Below the pieces are notes generated by a model. The model did no database searches. It was not told the origin of the DNA and was given only the letters and a program-made list of their open reading frames with translations. A stretch of 64,000 nucleotides of DNA from positions 1 through 64,000 of the forward strand of contig NZ_KB897909.1 of the NCBI RefSeq assembly GCF_000377205.1, given 5' to 3'. Each line of letters opens with the position of its first letter. The stretch's first letter is position 1. Both the position numbers and the translations under genes were made by a program. Below, piece by piece: positions 9,688-14,213 of the stretch. The stretch is from Thioalkalivibrio sp. ALJ3 (GTDB taxonomy: Bacteria > Pseudomonadota > Gammaproteobacteria > Ectothiorhodospirales > Ectothiorhodospiraceae).

Positions 9688-9843
9688 ACACCCACTTAGC
9701 ACTAGAGCCCCGGCCTTGTGCCGGGGCTTTTTCTTTTTCCGGTACCTAGGCACTTTGCATTTCTGTGGCACACCCACTTCCCTGGTTGTCATAAGCCCCG
9801 GCGATGCCCTCGGATCATCTGCGCATCTACGGGACACCCACTT
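9688..9843 (+). repeat. Three short direct repeats ACACCCACTT
   Basis: Exact 10-mers at 9688-9697, 9770-9779 and 9834-9843, spaced 82 and 64 bases, spanning the pilin terminator and the leader of the next gene. Purpose unknown. Confidence 0.5.
9706..9738 (+). terminator. Rho-independent terminator of the pilin gene
   Basis: AGCCCCGGC (9706-9714), loop CTTGT, GCCGGGGCT (9720-9728), then a T-rich tail TTTTCTTTTT. Perfect 9-bp GC-rich stem. Confidence 0.95.
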
Positions 9844-9869
9844 TCCTCCATCCTACTCTCGGCCATCTC

Positions 9870-10703
9870 ATGATCTCTCGACTGCCGCCCAGCGTTGTTG
9901 TTGGCCTTTCCCTATCTGCCCTCAGCGTCTTATGGGCCTGGGTCGCGCTCGCGGATATCGCAGCGATGGAGGTGGCACGAACCGACTGGCTACTCGCCGA
10001 CTCCCCGCTTCCGCTCCTCTGGTATACGCTGTTTAGCGAAGGCAGGGCTGTGGAGATGGTGCAGTGGGCCTTGCTTTTCCTGTCAACCGTGCTGGCCACC
10101 AGCTGGTGGTTCTCGCGCCGAAGCACCGCCTCGTCCGCCGAACGGTTGCCGTTTCTATTGCTGGCCAGCGCACTGCTCTTGATGCTGGTCGAGGACTCCC
10201 TGAACCTACGACATGTCGTAGCGGATGACTATCTGCCGCTTCTGCACAGCCACCTGCCCTTTACCGAGTCCTTCATTAACCGGCTCATATGGGAATTGTC
10301 CTTCTATTCCATGTTGGCGGCGATGATGCTTGGTTCGATCGCGACTATTGTTCTTCGCCACAGGCCCCGCCGGAAGACACTCGTGTGGCTTTCTCTCGCG
10401 TTCGTCGTCTACGGTTCCGTGGGGTTTGGATCCGCCTTGCGACGAATCGGGAACTGGCAGGAACGTCTCGGTACATGGCTGATGGAGCGATTCGACCTGT
10501 ACGGCCTTCCATACTGGCAGGATGCGCTCGAGATTATGGAACGGCCCAGGGAAATTCGTGAAAGTTACAGCCTCACCCTTGAGTACCTGCTCGTCGACCA
10601 TCTGCTGGAGGAGTCGGTGGAGCTGATTGCGGCCAGCCTACTGTTAGCGGCTCTTCTGTACCTTTCCCGCGACATCCAGCCGCGGTCCGTACCAGTGCCG
10701 TGA
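9870..10703 (+). CDS. Hypothetical multi-pass membrane protein
   Basis: 277 aa from the ATG at 9870. An earlier in-frame ATG at 9804 would add 22 residues translated from the ACACCCACTT repeat region and looks less likely. Six to seven hydrophobic segments can be seen: about 8-30, 65-80, 95-113, 147-170, 178-198 and 248-265. A soluble stretch at about 200-245 is rich in Arg, Glu and Trp. I recognise no family motif. It follows the pilin terminator and is on the same strand; no ribosome binding site is obvious. Base composition is somewhat lower in GC than the housekeeping genes, suggesting an accessory gene. Confidence 0.6.
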   Translation: MISRLPPSVVVGLSLSALSVLWAWVALADIAAMEVARTDWLLADSPLPLLWYTLFSEGRAVEMVQWALLFLSTVLATSWWFSRRSTASSAERLPFLLLASALLLMLVEDSLNLRHVVADDYLPLLHSHLPFTESFINRLIWELSFYSMLAAMMLGSIATIVLRHRPRRKTLVWLSLAFVVYGSVGFGSALRRIGNWQERLGTWLMERFDLYGLPYWQDALEIMERPREIRESYSLTLEYLLVDHLLEESVELIAASLLLAALLYLSRDIQPRSVPVP

Positions 10704-11481: not shown

Positions 11482-12324
11482 ATGAGCGAGCCCATCACGC
11501 TGCGCGGCCGTCTCGGCCAGTTCATCGAGGCGCGCCTGACCCAGCGCGCCATCATCGCAATCATCCTGCTGAATGCCGTGACGCTCGGACTGGAGACGTC
11601 CGACACCGTGATGGGCTGGATGGGGCCGGTGATCATCGCCGCAGACGTGACCATCCTGTCGATCTTCACCGCCGAGGTGCTGATCAAGCTGTTTGTCTAT
11701 CGCCTCAGCTTCTGGCGCAACCCGTGGAACGTCTTTGATTTCCTCGTGGTGGCGATCGCCCTGGTCCCGGCCACCGGGCCATTCCAGGTGTTGCGCGTGC
11801 TGCGACTGCTGCGCCTGGTGTCGATGGTGCCGAAACTGCGCTTTATCGTGGAGGCGCTGTTGAGGGCCATTCCCGGGATCATGTCGATCATGGGCCTGTT
11901 GATACTGATCTTCTACGTGTTCGCGATCATCGCGACCGGGCTTTTCAGCGACTCGTTTCCGCAAAAATTCGGGACGCTCGGGGCCTCGATGTATAGCCTG
12001 TTCCAGGTGATGACACTGGAAGGCTGGTCCGAAGACATCGCACGCCCGGTGATGGAGGTCTACCCCTGGGCCTGGGCGTTCTTCGTACCGTTCATCCTGA
12101 TCGCCACGTTCACCGTGTTGAACCTGTTCATCGCGATTATCGTGGACGCGATGCAGCGCATGCATGACCGCGCGATGGAGATCGAGCAGCAGATGATCCA
12201 CGACAGCGTGCACGAGGAGAACAAGGCGCTGCATTCGGAGATCCACGAGCTGCAGCAGGAGACGGTCAAACTCCAGGAACGCCTGATCCGCATGCAGAGC
12301 ATGCTGGAGAAACGGGTGAAGTGA
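11482..12324 (+). CDS. Prokaryotic voltage-gated cation channel (NaChBac family) with TLEGW selectivity filter
   Basis: 280 aa from the ATG at 11482. Six transmembrane segments plus a pore loop match homotetrameric NaChBac/NavAb channels. S4 (about residues 102-120) carries R105, R108, R111, then K118 and R120; the position of the first NavAb gating Arg appears to be Gln102. The filter FQVMTLEGWSED (T178 L179 E180 G181 W182 S183 E184 D185) differs from the usual TLESWSMG. S6 is VLNLFIAIIVDAM, and the C-terminus (about 240-277) is a heptad coiled coil as in NavMs and NaChBac. The extra upstream frame to 11362 has no channel homology. It conducts Na+ and/or Ca2+ into the cell; selectivity is inferred. 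Confidence 0.93.
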   Translation: MSEPITLRGRLGQFIEARLTQRAIIAIILLNAVTLGLETSDTVMGWMGPVIIAADVTILSIFTAEVLIKLFVYRLSFWRNPWNVFDFLVVAIALVPATGPFQVLRVLRLLRLVSMVPKLRFIVEALLRAIPGIMSIMGLLILIFYVFAIIATGLFSDSFPQKFGTLGASMYSLFQVMTLEGWSEDIARPVMEVYPWAWAFFVPFILIATFTVLNLFIAIIVDAMQRMHDRAMEIEQQMIHDSVHEENKALHSEIHELQQETVKLQERLIRMQSMLEKRVK

Positions 12325-12527: not shown

Positions 12528-14213
12528 TCAGGCGTTGGCGGCGACCTGCTCGGCCGCGGGTTCGCCCAGACGGCGGCCGGTGGCGTTGAGTACGGCCTGC
12601 AGCGTGGCGGCGGTCGTGTCCTCGCCCAGGGCGACGCCGACGGAACGCTCGCCGTCGACCTGTACGTCCACCGCGGCCATGGCGCGCGCCTCGGTGCCCG
12701 CCTCCATCGCATGCTCGTCAAAGTGGTTCACCTTGACCTCCACGCCCCGGTCGGCCTTCATCGCGGCGGTCAGGGCCTCGACCGCGCCGTGGCCCTCGCC
12801 CTTCAGGCGTGACTCGCGTCCGGGCGGGCCCATGGTTGCGTCCAGCCGCACCACCGCGCCTTCCTTCTCGATTTCGTAGCGCACCAGATCCCAGCCGGCG
12901 ACCGGCGTCAGGTAGTGCTGTTCGAACAGCCGGTGGATACGCTTCGAGGAGACCTCAACCTGGGTGGTCTCGGCGTCCTTCTGCACGATGCGGGCGAACT
13001 CGATCGCCAGCCAGCGCGGCAGCTCAATGCCGTAGTCGCGCTCCAGCACATGGGACACCCCGCCCTTGCCGGACTGGCTGTTGATGCGCACAACCTCTTC
13101 GTAGCGCCGACCCAGATCGCTCGGGTCGATCGGCAGGTAGGGCACGTTCCAGTGGCCGCCCTTCTCCTTGTAGTGCGCCAGGCCCTTGCGGATCGCATCC
13201 TGATGGCTGCCGGAGAACGCGGTGTAGACCAGCTCGCCGGCCCACGGGTGGCGCGGATGGACGGGCATGTCGGTGCACTCCTTGTACACGTCCATCAGCC
13301 GTTCCATGTCGGACAGGTCGATGGTCGGGTCGATCCCCTGCGAGTACAGGTTCATGCCGACGGTGACCAGGTCCATGTTGCCGGTGCGCTCGCCGTTGCC
13401 GAACAGCGTGCCCTCCAGGCGGTCGGCCCCGGCCAGCAGGCCCAGTTCGGCCGCGGCCACACCGGTGCCCCGGTCGTTGTGCGTGTGCAGCGACACGCAG
13501 AAGTGCTCGCGATACTGCACGTGGTCGCAGAACCACTCGACCTGGTCGGCGAAGACATTCGGCGTGGCCGACTCGACCGTGGCCGGCAGGTTGATCACCA
13601 CCTTCTGGCCCTGATCCGGGCGCCAGATCGCGTTTACTGCATCCACGACCTCGACCGCGTAGTCCAGCTCGGTGGTGGAAAAGCTTTCCGGCGAGTACTG
13701 GAAGATCCAGTCCGTCTGCGAGTACTTCGCCGCGTAGTCACGCACCCAGCGCGCGCCGTTCTCGGCGATGCCGCGGATGCCGGCGCGGTCCATGCGGAAG
13801 ACCTGCTCGCGCTGGGCCGGGTTGGTGGAGTTGTACACGTGCACCACCGCGCGCGGTGAGCCCTCCAATGCCGCGAAGGTCTTCTGGATCAGGTCCTCGC
13901 GCGCCTGGGTCAGCACCTGGATATACACGCCCTCGGGGATACGGTCTTCCTCGATCAGGCGGCGGGTGAAGTCGTAGTCAATCTGCGAGGCGGAGGGGAA
14001 GCCGATCTCGATCTCGGTCAGGCCGATGTCCACCAGCACCTCGAAGAAGCGCATCTTCTGCTCGACGCTCATCGGATGCACCAGCGCCTGGTTGCCGTCG
14101 CGCAGGTCCACCGCGCAGAAGCGCGGCGCAACCGTGGTGCGCTTCGCCGGCCAGCGGCGATCCGCCTTGTCGATCGGCGGGAACGGGGCATATTTGGTGT
14201 GATCGAAGGCCAT
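12528..14213 (-). CDS. leuA: 2-isopropylmalate synthase (LeuA type 2)
   Basis: 561 aa, the length of the type 2 (actinobacterial-like) LeuA group. It condenses acetyl-CoA with 2-oxoisovalerate, the first committed step of leucine synthesis. The catalytic barrel opens with DLRDGNQAL (R38, D39), the metal-binding HTHND is in SLHTHNDRG, and GNGERTGN follows. The C-terminal LeuA dimer/regulatory domain (about residues 440-545) is present and should bind leucine for feedback inhibition. The ribosome binding site is AGGAGAG before the ATG at 14213. It is divergent from an Lrp-type regulator with shared upstream DNA, which suggests local control. Confidence 0.96.
   Translation of the reverse strand: MAFDHTKYAPFPPIDKADRRWPAKRTTVAPRFCAVDLRDGNQALVHPMSVEQKMRFFEVLVDIGLTEIEIGFPSASQIDYDFTRRLIEEDRIPEGVYIQVLTQAREDLIQKTFAALEGSPRAVVHVYNSTNPAQREQVFRMDRAGIRGIAENGARWVRDYAAKYSQTDWIFQYSPESFSTTELDYAVEVVDAVNAIWRPDQGQKVVINLPATVESATPNVFADQVEWFCDHVQYREHFCVSLHTHNDRGTGVAAAELGLLAGADRLEGTLFGNGERTGNMDLVTVGMNLYSQGIDPTIDLSDMERLMDVYKECTDMPVHPRHPWAGELVYTAFSGSHQDAIRKGLAHYKEKGGHWNVPYLPIDPSDLGRRYEEVVRINSQSGKGGVSHVLERDYGIELPRWLAIEFARIVQKDAETTQVEVSSKRIHRLFEQHYLTPVAGWDLVRYEIEKEGAVVRLDATMGPPGRESRLKGEGHGAVEALTAAMKADRGVEVKVNHFDEHAMEAGTEARAMAAVDVQVDGERSVGVALGEDTTAATLQAVLNATGRRLGEPAAEQVAANA

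Follow-up and report, generated by a model that had tools for sequence, protein, structure and literature searches.

Within Thioalkalivibrio, a genus that thrives on salt and alkali, a BacNav channel gene occurs with two alternative selectivity filters, TLEGWSED and TLESWSMG, and comparisons of the sequences indicate that the pore segment carrying these filters has been switched between lineages at least twice, by either recombination or coupled replacement. The existence of the gene, its membership in the family, the fixed and coupled residue changes, and the repeated switching are directly established, and this switching is a stronger finding than the Ca2+ candidacy upon which the original prediction was centered. 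Calcium permeation of the channel is plausible, judging from its filter residues and from analogy to related channels. With an ordinary filter in close relatives and a gene that is otherwise very similar, the genus provides a natural experiment on ion choice.

The channel was read from the window (the whole 64,000-nucleotide stretch analyzed, on contig C5 of a 2.63 Mb genome) as an ORF of 280 aa starting with an ATG at 11482. Its features and the gene downstream are as follows:

11482..12324 (+): BacNav channel of the NavAb-like group, single-domain voltage-gated cation type, 280 aa (ORF; Pfam Ion_trans PF00520; NavAb match)
11782..11820 (+): S4 core of the voltage sensor, FQVLRVLRLLRLV, containing three arginines (NavAb and ortholog alignments)
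11947..12069 (+): pore segment, residues 156-196, comprising turret, P1, filter and P2 (fixed-difference comparison; borders set after the data were seen)
11965..11967 (+): turret residue K162 (motif PQKFG); the 14 TLEGWSED copies have K or M at this site, whereas the 14 TLESWSMG copies of the genus have Trp, the equivalent of NavAb W159 (alignment)
12013..12036 (+): selectivity filter TLEGWSED, residues 178-185, equivalent to NavAb T175-G182 (translation, NavAb alignment)
12169..12312 (+): C-terminal helix or coiled-coil tail, 3' of S6 (NavAb alignment; heptads by eye only)
12528..14213 (-): gene downstream of the channel, presumably leuA-type to go by its sequence; shared by the majority of close TLEGWSED strains and by ALJ16 and ALJT, which have TLESWSMG (neighbor comparison)

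The hallmarks of BacNav/NaChBac channels are all present, namely a single Ion_trans domain (PF00520, 1.5e-42), R-x-x-R repeats in S4, a TxExW pore loop, and a C-terminal coiled coil, the last recognized only via the NavAb alignment. NavAb chains in the PDB match residues 10-268 at E about 1e-75, in agreement with the earlier view that S6 and the coiled coil are intact, and the top PDB match is 9uc3, whose aligned chain contains TLEGWSM, the engineered NavAb S178G sequence. NCBIfam profiles yielded no match to the channel. The nearest named relatives, the Thioalkalivibrio strains ALJ21 and ARh2, share 94% identity with it, and the 16 nearest orthologs can be aligned with it from a common Met, which lends the start codon little support, as the script chose the start nearest to the expected one. 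Since the leuA-type neighbor is common to ALJ16, ALJT and most of the close TLEGWSED strains (tblastn, best match per gene and locus only), the channel locus is orthologous among them. Upstream of the channel, at 9804-10703 (+), the window encodes a predicted membrane protein of 299 aa, for which tblastn found no match in the other 49 loci, most of which extend no further than about 1.5 kb upstream. The sole further Ion_trans match in the genome at E <= 0.001 (L002, G000:C8:93577-93870) lies in a frame of 441 aa with the potassium filter TTVGYGD and flanks that, by eye, resemble a split periplasmic ligand-binding domain, a layout like that of prokaryotic ionotropic glutamate receptors.

Residues T178-D185 exactly match the TLEGWSED filter originally placed at 12013-12036 in a NaChBac-family channel, and the Pfam and NavAb matches bear out the family. 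It is also evident that the filter is as unusual as was proposed: TLESWSMG, the filter conserved in the NavAb-like group, is not kept, and the departures from TLESWxxG fall at positions 4, 7, and 8 (Gly181, Glu184 and Asp185). In the alignment with NavAb, which is gapless over the pore, G181 corresponds to S178, E184 to M181, D185 to G182, and K162 to W159. The original prediction had additionally drawn attention to Gln102 as the first S4 gating position. This residue (11785-11787) indeed occupies the place of NavAb R1, but it does not serve as evidence for calcium, as the S4 stretch is 3 residues shorter than that of NavAb and this shortening is lineage-wide and unrelated to the filter. Among 140 aligned channels, 41 have R..R..R only, 98 have four arginines in register, and one has neither; the 28 genus copies have Ser (26) or Gln (2) at the Gln102 position. 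By these alignments, the absent R1 is a lineage trait found in TLESWSMG members as well.

Of the 30 Thioalkalivibrio genomes searched, 27 encode the channel, in 28 places and without a single internal stop among the 28 matches, and it is present in all 23 genomes of the genus with completeness >= 90% and contamination <= 5%. TLEGWSED is found in 14 places of 13 genomes and TLESWSMG in 14 places of 14 genomes, whereas the rest of the family outside the genus has no Gly filter in 14 further pattern places. The octet TLEGWSED is identical in 14/14 copies despite pairwise protein identities down to 77.5% and synonymous variation at seven of its eight codons (all but Trp). Therefore, the filter is no sequencing or chance oddity, but is maintained rather than drifting, and the codon pattern indicates that purifying selection acts upon the octet. 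A correlate of filter type was sought in Ca2+ exchangers, but PF01699 matches occur in 30/30 genomes of the genus and hence do not discriminate. All channel-bearing genomes of the genus have one match except G005, which has two TLEGWSED copies 7 kb apart (L110 at C1:1815743 and L086 at C1:1822665). The best leuA match near L110 covers only about 86 codons and there is none within 1.5 kb of L086, an arrangement that suggests duplication or rearrangement.

When the two types are compared between close relatives, the differences are confined to the pore. The three nearest TLESWSMG copies (L094 from ALJ16, L095 from ALJT, and L096 from a MAG) are separated from the 12 close TLEGWSED copies by 11 fixed amino acid differences, all of them inside residues 156-196 and none in the other 239 residues; the borders of this segment are post hoc, so Fisher p values for it are descriptive. 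Against L094 and L095 alone, 11 of 14 fixed differences are in the pore segment and three are outside. The distant TLEGWSED copies L097 and L098 differ from the same three TLESWSMG copies at 9 positions inside the segment and 24 outside. Genus-wide, six positions are perfectly diagnostic of filter type (162, 172, 181, 184, 185, and 187), none of which lies outside the segment. The diagnostic nucleotides of L094-L096 are of TLEGWSED type at most sites flanking the segment, but of TLESWSMG type in codons 159-162, 172-185, and 193-194, with codons 168 and 187 mixed. The orthologs thus constitute natural matched pairs, being about 85% identical overall with all (11/11) or nearly all (11/14) fixed group differences in the pore segment.

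In both protein and DNA trees from which residues 152-200 were removed, L094 and L095 fall among the TLEGWSED copies, and three filter changes are needed, at least two of which are forced by starred branches. AU tests reject a single TLEGWSED clade both for the non-pore part of the gene (p 5e-5) and for pnp+nuoL markers in 27 genomes (p-AU 2.5e-4), G016, G021, and G023 being represented without the nuoL part. Purely vertical descent from one TLEGWSED origin within the genus is thereby excluded, and the pore must have switched at least twice. The DNA of the pore segment tells a different story from the rest of the gene, as its tree has a branch (89/94) that separates all TLEGWSED copies from the others, and it rejects the gene-tree placement of L094 and L095 with the 12 close copies (p-AU 2.5e-4). 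However, the 29 pore-segment codons with an invariant amino acid do not reject this placement (p 0.11), and the discordance may consequently reflect selection on amino acids instead of recombination; counts of synonymous differences across the segment are no clearer on the matter. We lean somewhat towards homologous recombination, the simpler cause, over repeated coupled replacement.

The glycine at position 4 also occurs beyond the genus. A search of 398 genomes across the phylum for FQxMTLExW identified 45 places in 44 genomes, 42 with Ser4 and three, including that of the window, with Gly4. In the class of G367, probably Alphaproteobacteria by its tree neighbors, a Gly4 version is found in 15 of 387 genomes (13 TLEGW and 2 TLDGW). 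Among 139 natural channels aligned, the Gly4 rows of which were enriched through a Gly4-only search, Met7 is absent from all 35 Gly4 channels, 14 of which are genus copies, and 34 of them carry an acidic residue at either position 7 or 8, the lone one without being L045 (TLDGWSSG). Outside of the genus, the corresponding counts are 21/21 and 20/21. The turret Trp is lost in 28 of the 35 Gly4 channels and kept in seven. Ser4 channels, on the other hand, have Met7 in 100/103, the turret Trp in 99/103 and an acidic residue at either of the two sites in 0/103. Left out of these counts and of the pairs below were L001-L016 (the window, 14 loci from strains that appear again in L083-L110, and the potassium-channel locus), the truncated L049, L140, which is identical to L074, and L144-L173, which are genus and family loci fetched again, including nine family loci, six of them new.

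In the best tree of these channels, position 4 must change 14 times, and starred branches force no fewer than six of the changes, although this is a quick tree of long rows, with weak deep branches and a program warning on meeting long branches. In six independent pairs defined by starred branches, the loss of Met7 goes the same way in five to six and the gain of an acid in five, and no pair runs counter to either trend (sign test p 0.03-0.06). For loss of the turret Trp, four to five pairs agree, and a few of the pairings include one pair that runs the opposite way (p 0.06-0.38). Gly4 is recurrent among NavAb-like channels. In the CC-licensed literature, to which this statement is limited, no publication on TLEGW in the NavAb-like group was found.

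Two characterized channels share the glycine, and they point in opposite directions. NavAb is of the same group and fold and aligns without gaps over the pore, and its engineered S178G form likewise reads TLEGW, although NavAb itself has Met181, Gly182, and the turret Trp159 where Glu, Asp, and Lys are found here. CavMr of Meiothermus ruber, a member of the AnclNav group, likewise has TLEGW and an acidic position 7. In the G240A background, CavMr exhibits a PCa/PNa of 218, which falls to 11.9 in G4S and 40.1 in V6T (PMC7041947, Table 1), and that paper assigns its Ca2+ selectivity to Gly4 and Val6, with Asp7 being dispensable. By comparison, NavAb S178G has a PCa/PNa below 0.05 together with increased Li+ selectivity (PLi/PNa 2.18; PMC12919392, Table 1), while values of 0.36 for M181A and 0.47 for S178G-M181A are given in the same source. 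Thus, the originally proposed role of the glycine as a Ca2+ determinant holds for CavMr, but the NavAb S178G data rule out its sufficiency.

The likeness to CavMr, from which the calcium candidacy was partly derived, covers TLEGW and the acidic position 7. Ser6 takes the place of Val6, so the Gly4 plus Val6 combination of CavMr is absent, and the channel has no Cys anywhere in its 280 aa by inspection of the sequence, is gapless to NavAb from P2 to S6, and lacks the P2-S6 (L6) loop extension with a disulfide described for CavMr in PMC10120453. Furthermore, it groups with NavAb and the FQxMTLESW channels, apart from 21 TL/FEDWTD channels (SH-aLRT 91 in a quick tree, on a branch that is not starred), and the Thioalkalivibrio channels nest among TLESWSM relatives in the trees. 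The TL/FEDWTD set is a stand-in for the AnclNav clade (CavMr, NavPp), with filters identical or close to that of NavPp; the search yielded 61 places in 55 of 281 genomes, from which 30 loci were taken and 9 without a channel-like frame dropped. Membership in the CavMr clade is disfavored by both this stand-in tree and the loop anatomy. The Ca2+ selectivity of CavMr is a measured property. The engineered TLDDW filters of CavAb and CaChBac (PMC7041947) also add acids to a BacNav pore, but as Asp at positions 3 and 4, where Glu and Gly are found here. NsvBa of Bacillus alcalophilus, with TLDSWGS as opposed to the TLESWAS of close Na+-selective channels (PMC4225499 and PMC7041947), is changed at positions 3 and 6, unlike the present channel, and was shown to be non-selective; we have seen no closer precedent for natural filter switching in an alkaliphile (PMC4225499).

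Based upon these comparisons, the explanation we favor, at slightly less than even odds, is a weakly selective channel (PCa/PNa about 0.3-10) that conducts Na+ and lets in or binds Ca2+ much more readily than NavAb does. It would be a NavAb-like cation channel, presumably a homotetramer opened by depolarization, with a pore loop altered as one unit. The Gly at position 4 would leave the outer mouth without its Ser side chain, Glu replaces the equivalent of Met181, which supports Na+ selectivity in NavAb, and the next residue is Asp, with three acidic positions per subunit (E180, E184, and D185) predicted to lie at the mouth. Since the natural Gly4 channels aligned never keep Met7, alongside which glycine in NavAb is tolerated with Ca2+ still shut out, and since nearly all of them gain an acid at one of the last two positions (7 or 8), mixed Na+/Ca2+ permeation would seem most likely. 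The candidacy as a Ca2+-permeable channel accordingly stands upon the loss of the Met181 equivalent (to Glu184), which the original prediction did not name, and the two added acids, not upon the glycine alone. The soda lakes inhabited by Thioalkalivibrio are described in PMC4766312 as being without major divalent cations, which speaks against bulk Ca2+ influx as its main role. Cation re-entry feeding antiporters and pH homeostasis, as proposed for alkaliphile channels, fits better and is likely its role in the cell; such re-entry for pH homeostasis is described in alkaliphilic Bacillus (PMC4225499).

A true native Ca2+ channel with a PCa/PNa above 10, its mouth widened by glycine, as has been proposed for CavMr and for Cav repeats I and III, and its Ca2+ affinity derived from the two acids, is an unlikely but serious alternative. 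The CavMr values above, the recurrence of Gly4 with an acid among NavAb-like channels, and the classification by Spafford 2023 of one-domain channels with Gly at this position as Ca2+-selective (PMC10120453) are all in its favor, yet S178G and even S178G-M181A remain far short of such a ratio in NavAb, Ser6 replaces Val6, the stand-in tree puts the channel in the other group, the L6 loop is missing, and the habitats of the genus are poor in divalents. Equally unlikely but serious is a pore that is still Na+-selective, or conducts Na+ with Ca2+ block like NavPp, and is adapted not to calcium but to the handling of Na+ (or Li+) at very high Na+ and pH. Loss of Met181 in NavAb costs divalent exclusion (PMC12919392), which is at odds with this scenario, even though S178G keeps Na+ over Ca2+ and favors Li+, NavPp with its three-acid TLEDWTD filter is Na+-permeable and inhibited by Ca2+ (PMC7041947), soda lakes are rich in Na+ and poor in divalents (PMC4766312), and Na+ re-entry is the job of alkaliphile channels (PMC4225499). 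Lastly, it is highly improbable that the pore is broken or drifting and serves no specific function, given the invariant octet amid synonymous variation, the intact frames, and the retention of the channel in every good-quality genome.

The choice between Na+ and Ca2+ by four-fold pores has been argued from conflicting mutants, with Gly4 being needed in CavMr and not sufficient in NavAb. The matched pairs of Thioalkalivibrio and the further Gly4 channels with the same partner changes bear on whether what the glycine requires in addition is the change at Met181 together with the added acids. Two broader propositions, which taken together we regard as doubtful though conceivable, would be that NavAb-like channels have repeatedly become divalent-permeable in nature by a coupled switch (Ser4 to Gly, loss of Met7, and an acid at position 7 or 8), a route unlike that of the CavMr lineage, and that both pores of Thioalkalivibrio are exchangeable alleles of a single gene, a 40-residue cassette moved by recombination.

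Several other pores were encountered during the searches. All three loci from Nesterenkonia haasae, N. salmonea, and N. natronophila (L061, L063, and L069) encode a BacNav filter TLSSWET, in which Ser replaces the high-field-strength Glu at position 3 and Glu is found at position 6, and their ion selectivity should be unusual, to go by these residues. The TLESWSMG channels L127 (G254) and L128 (G229) carry a CPxC motif in their turret, ahead of P1, which recalls the extracellular-loop disulfides of eukaryotic channels. In the class of G367, L179 (G780, C88:12872-12898) is a NavAb-like channel with the filter TLEGWVEI, nearly the TLEGWVD of CavMr, and is perhaps a better candidate for a native Ca2+ channel than that of the window.
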